DNA of 40,894 bases. Source: Gemmatimonadota bacterium. Its GTDB lineage: Bacteria; Gemmatimonadota; Gemmatimonadetes; Longimicrobiales; Gaopeijiaceae. Numbering within the stretch: the first letter of the stretch is position 1; each line of letters begins with the position of its first letter. The notes beneath the pieces are model-generated. The model worked only from the letters and a program-made list of their open reading frames with translations. It ran no database searches and was not told the DNA's origin. This document shows, one piece after another, positions 33,753-40,021 of this stretch. The position numbers and the translations under genes were made by a program. Location: contig VXMI01000193.1 of the NCBI GenBank assembly GCA_009841165.1, positions 12,462 through 53,355 on the forward strand, written 5' to 3'.

Positions 33753-35237
33753 CTATCGCCTCTGCATGACCGTGTACCCGCCGCCCGTGTCGTACCGGAG
33801 CACCGTCGCGGACTCCCCTTCGCCCTCGAAGGTCAGGAAAGTGCCGCCATCGCTGAACATCGTGCCGCCGCGGAAGTCGAGGTTGCTCGCTTCCTGCCCG
33901 TCTTCGGGGATCTCCTGACCGCCCACCATCAGCGGCGTAGCGGTGAGCACACCCCCCTCGGCCGCGATCCGCACGACCGCCGTGCCGCCTCGGGCCGGCC
34001 CACCGTAAACACCCTCGAAGTACGCGAGATCACCATCGAAGGTCATGGGTTCGGGCGTGTGGTCACCGACCATCGCCTCGATGATCTGCCGCGCGAGGGC
34101 AGACGGACCCACCGGGCCGGCGGTGTTGACCAGCACCGCGATCGCGAGATCCTCGTCCGGCAGGTACAGGGATTCTGTGAGGAAGCCGTTGATGCCGCCG
34201 CCGTGGTGGATCGCCCTGTGCCCCATGATGTCGGCCACCGCGATCCCCAGCGCATAGCGCAGCTTCGTCCCGTCGTTGAGGTCTCCCGGCTCGATCAGCT
34301 GCGCGTAGGACTCGTCCGTGAGCACCTCGCCGCCGTGAAGCGCGCCGAGCCACGTCGCCAGATCGCCGGCGCTGGCACAGAGCGAACCCGCCGCGAAGGG
34401 CACGTTGTGAACGATGAACCCCTTGTGGACGAGGCCGTCCTGGCCCGTGTCGTACCCGGTCACCTTGCCCTCGTGGATCTCGGTCTCGCTGCAGTAGTGC
34501 GACCGGTCCATGCCGAGCGGGGCGAAGATCCGCTGCTCGACGTAGTCCTCGTAGCTCATCCCCGACGCGTCTTCGAGGATCATGCCGGCCAGGTAGAAGG
34601 CGGAGTTGTTGTAGATCTCGTGTTCGCCGGTGGGGAAGTCGAAGGGATGGGCGGCGACGAGCGCGAGGAGAGAGTCTCGCGGCACGCGGCGCACGAAATA
34701 GGGCCGCGCCTCCTCCATCTCGGTGTAGCCGCGGATCCCCGACGTGTGATCGAGCAGTTCGCGCACTGTGATCCGGTTGCCCTGGGTCGGAAAGTCGGGC
34801 AGATAGTCGGACATGTCCGCATCGAGGTCCACGAGGCCCTGTTCCTGCATCTGGAGCAGCCCCACCGAAGTGAACTGCTTGGTGACCGAACCCGTCTCGT
34901 AGATCGCGTCCTCGGGAGTGGGGACGCGCAGTTCGACGTTGGCCCACCCGTACCCGCGTATCGCCACCGTCTCGCCCCGGTGCACGACCGCCACCGATCC
35001 GCCGGCGATCCGGCCTTCGCGCACCGGCTCCATCATGATCTCGTCGATCATGGTGACGTGCGCGGCGTGGTCGGGGTGGCCGTAGCCGACGCCCTCGGCC
35101 CCGTATTCGCCGACGGGGGCTGCGGTGTCGGAAGGGGCGGCGCAACCCGCGCCCGCGAGCGCCAGCGCCAGGCAGAGGGTGCCCAGGCGCCGGCCCATGG
35201 TCGGATTCGTGGCGCCGTGCGGTGTCGTGGCTTGCAT
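33753..35237 (-). CDS. Serine hydrolase lipoprotein, beta-lactamase/PBP fold (class C-like)
   Basis: A 494-residue predicted lipoprotein (GAGC, Cys32) with a class C beta-lactamase-type domain: SVTK (Ser117, Lys120), YNN in EIYNNSAFYL and HHG in AIHHGGGINGF. HVTMIDEIMMEPVREGRIAGGSVAVVHRG is the usual domain start. A C-terminal beta domain of about 110 residues follows. Esterase, D-aminopeptidase or cell-wall roles are all possible. The start at 35237 follows the DUF4837 stop by seven bases and has AGG upstream; an internal ATG at 35198 has no ribosome site. dnaE begins three bases after its stop. Confidence 0.88.
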   Translation of the reverse strand: MQATTPHGATNPTMGRRLGTLCLALALAGAGCAAPSDTAAPVGEYGAEGVGYGHPDHAAHVTMIDEIMMEPVREGRIAGGSVAVVHRGETVAIRGYGWANVELRVPTPEDAIYETGSVTKQFTSVGLLQMQEQGLVDLDADMSDYLPDFPTQGNRITVRELLDHTSGIRGYTEMEEARPYFVRRVPRDSLLALVAAHPFDFPTGEHEIYNNSAFYLAGMILEDASGMSYEDYVEQRIFAPLGMDRSHYCSETEIHEGKVTGYDTGQDGLVHKGFIVHNVPFAAGSLCASAGDLATWLGALHGGEVLTDESYAQLIEPGDLNDGTKLRYALGIAVADIMGHRAIHHGGGINGFLTESLYLPDEDLAIAVLVNTAGPVGPSALARQIIEAMVGDHTPEPMTFDGDLAYFEGVYGGPARGGTAVVRIAAEGGVLTATPLMVGGQEIPEDGQEASNLDFRGGTMFSDGGTFLTFEGEGESATVLRYDTGGGYTVMQRR

Positions 35238-35244
35238 CGTGTAC

Positions 35245-36279
35245 CTACTCCATGCATCGGAATGAATTGAGGATCTCGTCGAGCTGGATCATGTACTCAT
35301 ACTTGTCCCGCGACGGTGCGTACAGCCAGGCGTCGACCAGGTACAGCCGCTGCTGACCCGCGCAGGTGATCGTTCGGGCGATGAACGGCCCCGCCGCCGG
35401 ATACGCGCCCGGCGGGTTCTGCCAGACACCCTGGACGCTGTACGCCTCCTTGCCGCCGAAGTCCCCCGGGCCCGCGAAGATGACGTCCCGATTCACGAAC
35501 TGGGGATAGTCGTAGTACTGGTCCGCGATCCGGGTCCGCCATTCCACGATCTCGTCCTCTCCGACACCTTCCGGTACCGGGCTCTGCCACGTGATCGCGA
35601 ACTGCCGGATGAGCTCGGACGGGTCCGGGTTGTCGTTGCGGAAGATGTGGACCGAGTCCTGCAGCTGGTAGTCGTAGACCTCGGGCACGATGAGCTGGAA
35701 GCCGTGATCGTCCCGCAGGGTCCTGGCCAGCGCCGTGTCCGGCGCCGTGGAAAACATCCGGTTGACGACCCATTGCCGGTACTGCCCGTCGTAGATGGCG
35801 AAGAGATCGGGAAGCTGCTCCCGCACGGCGGCAGCGTCTTCTCCAGACCCCGTGCCTTCCTCCAGGACCAGAAGCGTGACGAGCTGCTGCCGCGCCCACA
35901 CCTCGTCGACCTGGACGACCTGGGGCGGCGTGACCGGCTCTTCGAGCCCGGCCAGCGGCGCAGCCATCCAGGGGTCCGAGGCCTTGCCGATCAGCAGCAG
36001 CTGCCTCAAGCGGCGGAGACCGGCCCAGGCCGAGTCGGTGGGCTCCGCGTACATGACCCGGAAGGCGTGTTCGTCGCGAACCGTGAACACGCTACCCTCG
36101 AGCGCCGTGAACGCGGTCTCCCCGACTTCGGCCCACAGCTCCGGCGAAGCCGATACGACGATCGCGTGCACATCTCCCATGGCGAGGGGCAGAGTGTCAC
36201 ACGCCGCCACCCCGGTCAATGCCGCCCCGACAGCCACCGCCGCCGTCGCGCGCGTCCCCTTCATGCTCGTTCCACGCAT
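35245..36279 (-). CDS. DUF4837-like lipoprotein
   Basis: A 344-residue predicted lipoprotein (VAAC, Cys27). The body resembles DUF4837 proteins: an N-terminal beta domain (VHAIVVSASPELWAEVG, VFTVRDEHAFRVMYAEP), a helical middle part (QQLVTLLVLEEGTGSGEDAAAVREQLPDLFAIYDGQYRQWV), and a second similar half (GFQLIVPEVYDYQLQ, VHIFRNDNPDPSELIRQFAITW). It ends in YEYMIQLDEILNSFRC. The function is unknown; the family is mostly described in Bacteroidota. The start at 36279 has GGGGAA about nine bases upstream. It heads the cluster with the serine hydrolase and dnaE, all within seven bases of each other. Confidence 0.78.
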   Translation of the reverse strand: MRGTSMKGTRATAAVAVGAALTGVAACDTLPLAMGDVHAIVVSASPELWAEVGETAFTALEGSVFTVRDEHAFRVMYAEPTDSAWAGLRRLRQLLLIGKASDPWMAAPLAGLEEPVTPPQVVQVDEVWARQQLVTLLVLEEGTGSGEDAAAVREQLPDLFAIYDGQYRQWVVNRMFSTAPDTALARTLRDDHGFQLIVPEVYDYQLQDSVHIFRNDNPDPSELIRQFAITWQSPVPEGVGEDEIVEWRTRIADQYYDYPQFVNRDVIFAGPGDFGGKEAYSVQGVWQNPPGAYPAAGPFIARTITCAGQQRLYLVDAWLYAPSRDKYEYMIQLDEILNSFRCME

Positions 36280-36420: not shown

Positions 36421-36954
36421 ATGGCGCGGCAATCACTCACGCGGGCGGCGGCGCCCGCCCTGCTTATCGCATCGGGCATTCTCGTTGCCGGGTGCGCTTC
36501 CGGGGGCGCGCCCGACGCCTCCGCCGAGACCCCGCAGCCCGCAACCGAAGAGGCCCCACCACCCGCGACCTCGGCAGCCGAACCCCCCGCCGAGAGTGCC
36601 CCGCCTCCCGCTGAAGCCGAACCCACGGCCCCAGTCGGCGGCATTTTCACCGACGCGCAGGCCCAGCGGGGCCGCACGACGTTCGACGAGGTCTGCTCCG
36701 AGTGCCACACCACGAGCGAGTTCCGCGGCCGGACCTTCCAGCGCGGCTGGGGGCGCCGCACCGTCTACTCGTTCTTCCGCACCGTGCGCTCCACCATGCC
36801 CGACGACAATCCCGGCGGACTGGAGGAACAGATCTACCTGGACGTGGTGTCGTACATCCTGAGCATCAACGGGCACGACGGCGGGCCGGCCGAGTTGTCC
36901 GCCGACTCGCCGATGCGGGAGGTGCGGATCGCCCCGTCGGAGCCGGGCCGCTGA
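36421..36954 (+). CDS. c-type cytochrome lipoprotein with Pro/Ala tether
   Basis: A 177-residue lipoprotein (VAGC, Cys25). Residues 26-72 are a Pro/Ala/Glu-rich tether, then a single cytochrome c domain: GRTTFDEVCSECH with Cys92, Cys95, His96 as the heme site and probably Met126 (STMPDDNPG) as distal ligand, ending in a helix YLDVVSYILSING. It would carry electrons at the membrane surface. Its stop overlaps the proposed CTG start of the flavoenzyme (CTGA), so the two are probably made together and this is the likely electron acceptor. Confidence 0.9.
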   Translation: MARQSLTRAAAPALLIASGILVAGCASGGAPDASAETPQPATEEAPPPATSAAEPPAESAPPPAEAEPTAPVGGIFTDAQAQRGRTTFDEVCSECHTTSEFRGRTFQRGWGRRTVYSFFRTVRSTMPDDNPGGLEEQIYLDVVSYILSINGHDGGPAELSADSPMREVRIAPSEPGR

Positions 36955-38345
36955 GCGCGGAGCGGCGGGAGCCCGACGGAGCGTCGCAGGACTCCCGGGC
37001 TGCCGGGCGAGCCGGCGGGCCGCCCGCGGTCGACCGCCGAGGTTTCGTCAAGGCAGCTGCGGCCGGTGCCGGGGCGGCACTCTACGGCGCGAGCGCGAGG
37101 GCCGCGACGGCGCACGAGCCCGCCACGCGCGCTACCCGCGAGGCCCCCTGGGTGCGCACCCGGCAGACCCCCGACATCGCGGTCGTGGGAGCCGGCGCCT
37201 TCGGGGCCTGGACCGCGCTCAACCTCCAGCAGTCCGGCGCCCGGGTGGCGCTGATCGACCAGTACGGCCCGGGCAATTCGCGCGCCACGTCGGGCGGCGA
37301 GACGCGCGGCGTCCGCACAGGGTATGGGGGGCACGCCTACGAACTCCTCTGGACCCGCTGGGCCAGCCGCGCGATCGAGATGTGGCGCGAGTGGGACGAG
37401 CGGTGGCAGGAGATGCTGCTGCCACGCGTGTTCTTCCCCACCTCGGACCTGATCATGCGGGACGAGTGGACCGAGTTCATGGAGGACACCCGCAGGAACT
37501 GGGACGAACTCGGCATCCGCTACGAGGTGATCGACGCGGACGAGATCCGCAGGCGGTGGCCGGTGATCGACGTGACGGACATCGCCGTCGCGCTGTGGGA
37601 ACGGGACGCCGGGGTCGTGCGGGCGCGCCGGGCGATCGAGTCGGTTGCGCAGGTCTTCGAGCACGAGGGGGGCCAGGTGCGGATCGGGCACGCCGCGATG
37701 GGCAACTCGACCAACCGCAGGCTCAACGCGCTCACACTCCAGCCGGGCGGCGCCGTGTCGGCCGGAGCCTATGTGTTCGCGCTTGGACCCTGGTTCCCCA
37801 AGGCCTTCCCTGAAGTGATGGGGGAGCGGGTGCGCATACCGATCGGCCATGTCGTGTACTTCCGCACGCCGCCGGGCGACAACCGCTACAGCTATCCGAA
37901 CCTGCCGAGCTACAACTTCCCCGGGGTGACCGGGTGGCCGGCGCTCGGGCCCGACAACCGCGGTTTTCGCGTGCGCAGGGGCGGGCGGGGACGCGGTGAA
38001 GGAGACGACGATCCCGACACCAGCCGCCGCTGGCTGCAGCCCGAGGAGCTGGAGCGGCCGCGGGAGTTCGTCGCCGAGCGCTTTCCCGGACTGGCGGAGG
38101 CCCCGATCTCCGAGACCCGTGCGTGTCACTACGAGATCTCGACCACGCGCAACTTCTTCTTCGACCATCATCCGGACTTCGACAACGTCTGGTTCGCGGG
38201 CGGCGGCTCGGCCGAGGGCTTCAAGTTCGGCCCGGTGATCGGGGAGTACATGGCCGGCCGGGTTCTGGGAACCGAGACCGATCCCGAGCTGATCGAGGCG
38301 TTCGGGCTGGGGGAGGATGAGCCGGAACCGGGCGAATTCGAGTAG
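36951..38345 (+). CDS. Tat-exported FAD-dependent amine oxidase/dehydrogenase, sarcosine oxidase-like
   Basis: A 464-residue flavoenzyme of the DAO family. A twin-arginine signal (DRRGFVKAAAAGAG, 28-41) precedes the FAD-binding GAGAFG (80-85). The segment SGGETRGVRTGYG resembles the HGxTRxxR motif of monomeric sarcosine oxidase, and FAGGGSAEGFKFGPVIGE matches its C-terminal flavin site. Cys392 (TRACHYE) lies where those enzymes attach FAD covalently. Such enzymes oxidise N-methyl or secondary amines; the substrate here is unknown. No ATG, GTG or TTG lies in frame between the cytochrome's conserved part and the signal; CTG at 36951, with GGAG eight bases upstream and overlapping the previous stop (CTGA), is the best start. 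The frame further upstream shadows the cytochrome. Confidence 0.82.
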   Translation: MSAERREPDGASQDSRAAGRAGGPPAVDRRGFVKAAAAGAGAALYGASARAATAHEPATRATREAPWVRTRQTPDIAVVGAGAFGAWTALNLQQSGARVALIDQYGPGNSRATSGGETRGVRTGYGGHAYELLWTRWASRAIEMWREWDERWQEMLLPRVFFPTSDLIMRDEWTEFMEDTRRNWDELGIRYEVIDADEIRRRWPVIDVTDIAVALWERDAGVVRARRAIESVAQVFEHEGGQVRIGHAAMGNSTNRRLNALTLQPGGAVSAGAYVFALGPWFPKAFPEVMGERVRIPIGHVVYFRTPPGDNRYSYPNLPSYNFPGVTGWPALGPDNRGFRVRRGGRGRGEGDDDPDTSRRWLQPEELERPREFVAERFPGLAEAPISETRACHYEISTTRNFFFDHHPDFDNVWFAGGGSAEGFKFGPVIGEYMAGRVLGTETDPELIEAFGLGEDEPEPGEFE

Positions 38346-38376: not shown

Positions 38377-38403
38377 AAAACCCGCAGTTGACTTGCGGTT
38401 TTT
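38377..38403 (+). terminator. Rho-independent terminator after the flavoenzyme gene
   Basis: CCGCA (38382-38386), a seven-base loop, TGCGG (38394-38398) and a run of five T, with the A-run at 38377-38380 able to pair with the T-run past one mismatch. It lies about 30 bases after the flavoenzyme stop and before the next serine hydrolase. Confidence 0.65.
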
Positions 38404-38467
38404 CAAGGAAGAGCTTCGTCCAGACCGCCCGGACGGATGGGAACCGTCCAAGTCGAAGGAACGCCGA

Positions 38468-40021
38468 ATGAGGATCTGGAGCAGGACCATGCGCAACCGC
38501 CCCTGGAACAACTCGCCCGTTTTCGCTCTCGCGCTGGCGCTCTCGGCCCTGGCGGCGCCCCCGTCGCTCTCGGGTCAGGGCCAGGCCTTCGCCGGGTTCG
38601 ACGCCTTCATGGCGCAGGTCATGGACGACTGGCGGATCCCGGGCGTGGCCGTCGGGGTGATTCACGACGGGGAGATCGTGCTGGCGCAGGGGTTCGGCTA
38701 CCGCGACATCGAGAACGAGCTGCCGGTGACCGGGAACACGACCATGGCGATCGGCTCCAACAGCAAGTCGTTCACGGTCACGCTCATGGCCATGCTCGTG
38801 GACGAGGGCAAGCTCGACTGGGACACGCCCGTGCGCGACTACCTGGCCGACTTCCGGCTCTACGACGAGTTCGCCACCGCCGAGATGACCCCGCGCGACC
38901 TCGTCTCCCACCAGTCGGGGCTGCCGCGGCACGACAACGTGTGGTACGGACGGGCGGCGTCGCGCGAGGAGATCTTCCACAAGCTCCGCTACCTCGAGCC
39001 CAACGCGTCGTTCCGCAGCCGCTACCAATACCAGAACCTGATGTTCATGACGGCCGGCTACCTCACCGAGCGCCTCACCGGGCGCGACTGGGACGGCCTC
39101 GTCGACGAGCACATCTTCACCCCGCTGGGCATGGACCGCTCCAACACCTCGGTCGACGATTCACCCGGCTCGGGCGACCACGCGCTCCCCTACATGCTGC
39201 GCGACGGCGTCCTGAAGCGGGTGCCCTTACGGAACATCGACAACGCGGGTCCGGCGGGCTCGATCAACTCGAACGTCGTCGAGATGATGGCCTACATCGA
39301 GGCCCACATGGACGGCGGCATCCAGGACGGTCACCGCCTCATCTCGGAGGAAAGCTCCGCCGAGATGCAGCAGCCGCAGTTCGCCATGGAGGGCGATTCG
39401 GAGTTCGCCGAAGTCGGCCCCACCAGCTACGGGCTCGGGCTGCGCGTGACCACCTACCGCGGCCACAAGATGGTGCTGCACGGCGGCGGCATCGACGGCT
39501 TCATCTCGTCGATGTCGTGGCTGCCCCGCGAGAAGATGGGCGTCATGGTGCTCACGAACCGGTCCGGCGACATGAACCCGGTGCCGCTCATGGTGGCCTA
39601 CAACGTGTACGACCGGCTGCTGGGGCTGCCCGAGGTCGACTGGAACGCCCGCAACCTCGAGGAGCGGCAGGAGCAGGAGGCGCGCGCCGCCGAGTCGGAG
39701 CGCGAGATGACGGGCAGGCGGGTCGAGGGAACCAGGCCCAGCCACTCGCTCGATGCCTATGCGGGGACTTATCATCATCCCGGATACGGCACCATGCAGG
39801 TGGCCGCGGACGGGAACGGACTCCGCGTCTCGTACGACGGCATCGCGCTCGATATGGAGCACTTCCACTACGAAGTCTTCAGGATCACTTCGCCGCCCGC
39901 CACGGTGCCCGTCACCGGTCTGGTGACCTTCAACACCGACAGTGACGGGCGGGTGAGCAGCGTGGCGATCCCCTTCGAGCCCAACGGAGCCGACATCGTT
40001 TTCAAGCGCGTGGAGTCGTGA
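38468..40021 (+). CDS. Serine hydrolase, beta-lactamase/PBP fold (class C-like) with DUF3471-like C-terminus
   Basis: A 517-residue exported enzyme. The signal peptide ends near SGQGQ (about 39). The class C beta-lactamase-type domain has SNSK (Ser97, Lys100), YQN in RYQYQNLMF and HGG in VLHGGGIDGF. After a charged helical linker (LEERQEQEARAAESEREM) comes a C-terminal beta domain of about 90 residues (LDAYAGTYHHPGYGTMQVAADG) typical of DUF3471-like tails. The start at 38468 has AAGGA upstream; an ATG at 38489 also has a GGAG and cannot be excluded. It is the third enzyme of this fold in the window; the substrate is unknown. Confidence 0.88.
   Translation: MRIWSRTMRNRPWNNSPVFALALALSALAAPPSLSGQGQAFAGFDAFMAQVMDDWRIPGVAVGVIHDGEIVLAQGFGYRDIENELPVTGNTTMAIGSNSKSFTVTLMAMLVDEGKLDWDTPVRDYLADFRLYDEFATAEMTPRDLVSHQSGLPRHDNVWYGRAASREEIFHKLRYLEPNASFRSRYQYQNLMFMTAGYLTERLTGRDWDGLVDEHIFTPLGMDRSNTSVDDSPGSGDHALPYMLRDGVLKRVPLRNIDNAGPAGSINSNVVEMMAYIEAHMDGGIQDGHRLISEESSAEMQQPQFAMEGDSEFAEVGPTSYGLGLRVTTYRGHKMVLHGGGIDGFISSMSWLPREKMGVMVLTNRSGDMNPVPLMVAYNVYDRLLGLPEVDWNARNLEERQEQEARAAESEREMTGRRVEGTRPSHSLDAYAGTYHHPGYGTMQVAADGNGLRVSYDGIALDMEHFHYEVFRITSPPATVPVTGLVTFNTDSDGRVSSVAIPFEPNGADIVFKRVES

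Follow-up and report, generated by a model that had tools for sequence, protein, structure and literature searches.

A predicted Tat-exported flavoenzyme of the sarcosine oxidase family, conserved beside a cytochrome c lipoprotein in Gemmatimonadota, is a probable dehydrogenase

The genome of a Gemmatimonadota bacterium (assembly GCA_009841165.1) was analysed over a stretch of 40,894 nt (contig VXMI01000193.1, positions 12,462 to 53,355 of the forward strand), hereafter referred to as the window. Two overlapping genes on its + strand are the subject of this report: P0001 (36421–36954), which encodes a cytochrome c lipoprotein of 177 aa, and P0002 (36951–38345), which encodes a flavoenzyme of the monomeric sarcosine oxidase (MSOX) family predicted to be exported by the twin-arginine translocation (Tat) system. 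With a probability of about 0.7, the pair represents a periplasmic MSOX-family flavin dehydrogenase and the cytochrome that is its electron acceptor. The enzyme is most likely a secondary or N-methyl amino-acid dehydrogenase with covalent flavin adenine dinucleotide (FAD) that donates to the lipoprotein cytochrome, not an O2-using oxidase; we infer both the electron transfer and the substrate. All coordinates are window positions, and residues of the flavoenzyme are numbered from its putative CTG start (residue 1), which gives a protein of 464 aa. A preliminary description of this DNA had already proposed a cytochrome c lipoprotein beside a Tat-signalled flavoenzyme; both genes were found where it placed them, and the pair recurs in tens of orthologues.

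Fold and conserved residues of the flavoenzyme

In Pfam, P0002 matched the DAO family (PF01266, E = 1.3e-44) and had no match to the amine oxidase (monoamine oxidase-type) family. A phmmer search against PDB sequences matched it to monomeric sarcosine oxidase at an E-value of about 1e-30. For the AlphaFold2 model of P0002, which had a mean predicted local distance difference test score (pLDDT) of 86.5, MSOX structures led the match lists of both Foldseek (E = 5.6e-31) and VIA-align. Superposition on MSOX by VIA-align (Z 43.8, root mean square deviation 2.2, 367 residues aligned) revealed the two-domain fold of the DAO superfamily, and N-methyltryptophan oxidase (MTOX) was matched with a Z of 41.9. 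The scores against the NCBIfam models were far under the cut-offs, at 135.8 versus 479.65 bits for soxA_mon and 163.1 versus 257 bits for N-methyl-L-tryptophan oxidase.

The predicted Tat signal, RRGFVKAAAAGAGAALYGASARA (37035–37103, + strand), contains the twin-arginine motif RRGFV at residues 29–33, and the pattern RR.F[VLMI] was kept in nearly all orthologues. It is followed by the GAGAFG dinucleotide-binding motif of the FAD domain at residues 80–85 (37188–37205, +). Both elements had been reported in the preliminary description, which had also placed Cys392 (38124–38126, +) at the position of covalent FAD attachment in MSOX. This assignment was borne out by the alignment of Cys392 with MSOX Cys315. 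The residue, now the predicted attachment site in P0002, was invariant in every homologue compared, so that its loss in orthologues, which had been named as grounds for abandoning the proposal, was not seen.

Within the sequence TRGVR (37302–37316, +), Thr118, Arg119 and Arg122 correspond to MSOX Thr48, Arg49, which lies beside the flavin, and Arg52, and all three were invariant across 50 homologues. The same was true of Lys425 (38223–38225, +), the counterpart of MSOX Lys348 on the substrate carboxylate side, and an equivalent of MSOX Tyr317 was present in 49 of the 50. In MSOX, the substrate carboxylate is bound by Arg52 and Lys348, and the retention of their equivalents therefore indicates an amino-acid-like substrate. 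Judged from these aligned residues, the substrate class was most likely a secondary or N-methylated amino acid.

The oxygen-site residue and linkage to the cytochrome

MSOX is a model for protein-promoted reactivity of flavin with O2, and the role of its Lys265 was assigned by mutagenesis. This residue is named as the site of O2 activation in the title of Zhao et al. 2008 (as listed in PMC5459902 and PMC7312611), and the K265M variant is tabulated with decreased oxidase activity (PMC7312611). In P0002, no Lys was found at this position in any alignment register, a loss that the preliminary description had not mentioned. The segment reads RGFRV in the window's clade, where Arg340 (37968–37970, +) replaces Lys265, and Arg was present in 48 genus-to-order and 20 class-level loci, i.e. 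in 68/68 clade members. Two other sets of proteins were read from aligned segments. The Tat-exported sister group (L176–L195; 36–44% identical, Tat motif recognised in 18/20) has RGFKV or an equivalent sequence with Lys in 20/20, and the cytosolic paralogues from the same genomes (23–28% identical, no Tat motif) have Lys in 18/18. The sister motif RGFKV aligned without gaps to both MSOX and the clade motif RGFRV, which favours Arg340 as the equivalent of Lys265. Arg342, suggested by phmmer and MAFFT, and Phe339, suggested by hhalign against the paralogues, were both set aside in favour of Arg340 on the basis of this sister alignment.

The flavoenzyme clade is spread throughout the Gemmatimonadota (68 loci) and was monophyletic; every member had the Cys and almost every one the Tat motif. 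In a tree of 96 proteins, the Arg clade formed one side of a branch with a Shimodaira–Hasegawa-like approximate likelihood ratio test (SH-aLRT) support of 100. The same tree required one change between Lys and Arg and at least eight changes in cytochrome adjacency.

For the linkage counts, loci at contig edges were left out, leaving 65 testable clade loci. A CxxCH cytochrome of the P0001 family was located within 1 kb in 34/45 genus-to-order and 15/20 class-level loci, 49/65 in total, compared to 0/19 for the sister loci and 0/18 for the paralogues. Conservation of the neighbourhood, which had been put forward as a check, thus extended across the phylum for these 49 loci and did not hold for the other 16. 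In the window's genus, the cytochrome gene was immediately upstream in every locus where the contig extends that far, mostly with an overlap or a gap of a few tens of bases. Its orientation was codirectional in this genus and often divergent in remoter members of the clade. Two genus members (G011 and G015) were without both the flavoenzyme and the cytochrome. The sister group, with Lys kept and no cytochrome of this family, possibly comprises exported O2-using oxidases.

P0001 itself is an open reading frame with an ATG start and a TGA stop that matched Pfam Cytochrome_CBB3 (PF13442) with 31 bits against a cut-off of 27. Near the N-terminus, the lipobox VAGC (36484–36495, +) ends in Cys25, the presumed lipidation site, and an AGC or GC ending was kept in most orthologues. 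After a linker of some 45 residues rich in Pro, Ala and Glu (residues 26–72), the haem c motif CSECH occupies residues 92–96 (36694–36708, +). Its C92, C95 and H96 were invariant in 27 homologues, as were Pro127 and Met126 (36796–36798, +), the latter being the presumed distal haem ligand. By sequence, no solved relative of the cytochrome was found at E 0.01, nor was there a confident fold match, and the match to the cytochrome of flavocytochrome c sulfide dehydrogenase (1fcd_C) was negligible (E 9). The genome has a second cytochrome lipoprotein of 39% identity (L097; G000:C158, reverse strand, approximately 1501–1932). In relatives, cytochromes of the same family adjoin genes for pyrroloquinoline quinone (PQQ)-dependent dehydrogenases, namely at L041/L066 (G026), L058 (G066) and L059 (G096). 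In G026 the gene order is cytochrome, PQQ-type enzyme (by sequence) and flavoenzyme. PQQ dehydrogenases usually have cytochrome c as their acceptor, and these neighbours are consistent with a general acceptor role of the cytochrome family for periplasmic dehydrogenases.

The gene overlap and the candidate CTG start

The two genes share the sequence CTGA (36951–36954, +), in which the putative CTG start of the flavoenzyme overlaps the TGA stop of the cytochrome. A Shine-Dalgarno-like GGAG (36939–36942, +) lies 8 nt before the CTG. In the flavoenzyme frame, the sole ATG, GTG or TTG on the 5′ side of the Tat motif was GTG 36702, which falls within the CxxCH motif of the cytochrome, and the next in-frame start codon was GTG 37152 on the 3′ side of the signal peptide. 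The preliminary description had given the same GGAG, spacing and overlap, and was also correct that no conventional start codon lies between the cytochrome core and the signal.

For the closest relative (L004), the junction DNA was identical to that of the window. For G014, in which the locus (L053) is split over two contigs, the CTGA and the GGAG 8 nt upstream were again observed with no alternative start. A frame error concealing an ATG is unlikely given that these two loci are arranged alike. Elsewhere in the genus and its near relatives, the same in-frame junction was ATGA (L013, L016, L018, L019 and L021), GTGA (L014, L015, L023, L025 and L026) or TTGA (L007), or there was an ATG slightly nearer the Tat motif. 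An NTGA was in frame in 11 of the 14 loci without an ATG before the Tat motif (p = 0.0007 against 1/3, relatedness ignored). An in-frame CTGA was not accepted as general proof of a CTG start, as it also occurs with a downstream ATG (L008, L009, L012 and L037).

Based on the sequence of the junction, CTG 36951 is the best-supported start of the flavoenzyme in the window's genome and two relatives, and initiation most likely takes place there. Against this stands the rarity of the codon, CUG accounting for 0.024% of bacterial starts with 0.86% of the efficiency of AUG (PMC11497404). For so poor an initiator, translation might instead begin at one of the two GTG codons in the same frame, either within the cytochrome gene at 36702 or at 37152 to give a cytosolic, signal-less product. 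We consider such a start unlikely. GTG 36702 is positioned inside the haem motif, and a start at GTG 37152 would remove a Tat signal that is conserved clade-wide. Moreover, the frame, the GGAG and the CTGA are kept in three genomes without an alternative, and relatives use ATG, GTG or TTG at the same overlap, with NTGA in frame as counted above. The CTG start as first described therefore stands as the best candidate in these three genomes and not as a rule for the family, since ATG or GTG is the start in most orthologues. Such orthologues had been expected to undermine the proposal if they also had no linked cytochrome. They do keep the cytochrome, so the CTG appears to be a local variant and the pairing is not refuted.

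With regard to the surroundings of the pair, a DUF4837 lipoprotein-like gene (35245–36279, − strand) is divergent from the cytochrome gene. Serine beta-lactamase-like genes flank the region on opposite strands, at 33753–35237 (−), judged from its own sequence only, and at 38393–40021 (+), which matched PF00144 and DUF3471. The named relatives of the locus were metagenome-assembled genomes of Gemmatimonadota. Many of these appear, from their isolate codes, to originate from marine sponges, which suggests that the host bacterium is sponge-associated.

Proposed mechanism, alternatives and relation to known systems

According to the proposed mechanism, Tat would export the flavoenzyme after it has folded in the cytoplasm and bound FAD covalently through Cys392. 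Its substrate beyond the inner membrane would be a small amino acid, secondary or N-methylated, held by Arg119, Arg122, Tyr394 and Lys425 during its oxidation. The reduced flavin, proposed to react poorly with O2 because the O2-activating Lys is replaced by Arg, would pass its electrons singly to the haem of the lipoprotein cytochrome. The cytochrome, tethered by its flexible linker, would hand them onward to the respiratory chain, and translation of the two genes would be coupled via the 4-nt overlap. Encoded in the genome are TatC, proteins for c-type cytochrome assembly and two haem-copper oxidases of the COX1 type, so that export, haem attachment and a possible respiratory route to O2 are all available.

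A parallel is provided by NicA2 and Pnao of Pseudomonas putida S16, exported homologues of flavin amine oxidases for which O2 is a slow reactant and CycN, a cytochrome of the operon, a fast one (PMC9396064). In the NicA2 family, an adjacent cytochrome gene has been taken to indicate, at the genetic level, that the enzyme acts as a dehydrogenase (PMC12272882). The window's locus is similar in combining an export signal, here a Tat motif, with an operon that includes a gene for cytochrome c, here overlapping by 4 nt. It differs in that P0002 belongs to the DAO/MSOX family with a predicted covalent FAD and that the cytochrome is a lipoprotein. By analogy, the arrangement resembles NicA2–CycN but would have arisen in another fold family. 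The same reasoning, together with the loss of the O2-activating Lys, makes the window's enzyme most likely a dehydrogenase for its cytochrome.

Several observations weigh against this interpretation. As the Lys-to-Arg change arose once, its association with the cytochrome amounts to a single evolutionary event and not to an independent series. Sixteen of the 65 testable clade loci had no P0001-family cytochrome within 1 kb. For two of the Arg-clade loci without a linked cytochrome (L044 and L046, with L045 added by sequence), a CstA transporter gene (PF02554) directly follows the flavoenzyme; this carbon-starvation transporter is a possible hint of peptide or amino-acid substrates. MSOX His269 and Tyr254 are not kept in P0002 homologues, which leaves the substrate uncertain. 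Lastly, Arg is a milder replacement than Met at the Lys265 position, and some O2 reaction may be left over; MSOX K265R is reportedly about 250-fold slower with O2.

The pair could accordingly be read as an ordinary periplasmic oxidase whose flavin is reoxidised by O2, the cytochrome serving otherwise, for example in the removal of the peroxide formed. The MSOX fold, the kept equivalents of Cys315, Arg49 and Arg52, the positive charge that Arg preserves at the O2 site and the clade members without an adjacent cytochrome would all suit an oxidase. It is nevertheless an unlikely explanation, since Lys265 is gone from the entire clade yet kept by Tat-exported relatives that have no cytochrome, and since P0001 is small, carries a single haem with an invariant Met ligand and matched no peroxidase model above the cut-off. 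Another possibility is a dehydrogenase that donates chiefly to a general periplasmic cytochrome or some other carrier, with the linked cytochrome mostly serving further dehydrogenases of the periplasm, PQQ enzymes among them. The homologous cytochromes beside PQQ dehydrogenases, the one locus where a PQQ-type enzyme gene stands between those of the cytochrome and the flavoenzyme, and the loci without a linked cytochrome point in this direction. The position of the cytochrome directly upstream in all window-genus loci with sufficient contig, and its absence from the genus members that have no enzyme, make this quite improbable. A flavin dehydrogenase paired with its own cytochrome thus remains the preferred reading.

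Compared to MSOX and MTOX, P0002 shares the fold and the equivalents of Cys315, Thr48, Arg49, Arg52, Tyr317 and Lys348; it differs in its predicted Tat export, its linkage to a cytochrome, the Arg in place of Lys265, the changed His269 and Tyr254 positions and its sub-cut-off NCBIfam scores. Flavocytochrome c sulfide dehydrogenase combines a cytochrome c subunit with a periplasmic flavoprotein whose FAD is in 8-alpha-S-cysteinyl linkage. It can be likened to the present pair in the Cys-linked FAD (predicted here) and the cytochrome c partner, and differs in fold family and substrate. The dimethylglycine and sarcosine dehydrogenases of the DAO superfamily and the archaeal L-proline dehydrogenase are related to P0002 in fold (1y56_B, Z 40.0; 4pab_B, Z 37.8). 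These enzymes are dehydrogenases rather than oxidases, but are intracellular and use electron transfer flavoprotein or complex-internal carriers, with no exported lipoprotein cytochrome. No paper on this gene pair or on a cytochrome-linked MSOX was found in the literature searched.

For the wider history of the family, we lean slightly towards the following account, taken as a whole. Exported MSOX-family enzymes forming one clade across the Gemmatimonadota would have passed from oxidase to dehydrogenase when Lys became Arg and a lipoprotein cytochrome dedicated to them took over as acceptor, and translation of the enzyme in one small sub-branch would start at a CTG coupled to the cytochrome stop. 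The CTG start, if real, would be a further example in which coupling through a gene overlap rescues a start codon that bacteria use very rarely. The Arg clade with its cytochrome and the exported sister group with Lys and no cytochrome offer a natural comparison for the divide between oxidases and dehydrogenases. If the account is true, an unrecognised dehydrogenase branch exists within a textbook oxidase family, the label 'oxidase' needs correcting for these proteins in a widespread and barely cultured phylum, and the clade may provide oxygen-insensitive enzymes for amine sensors.
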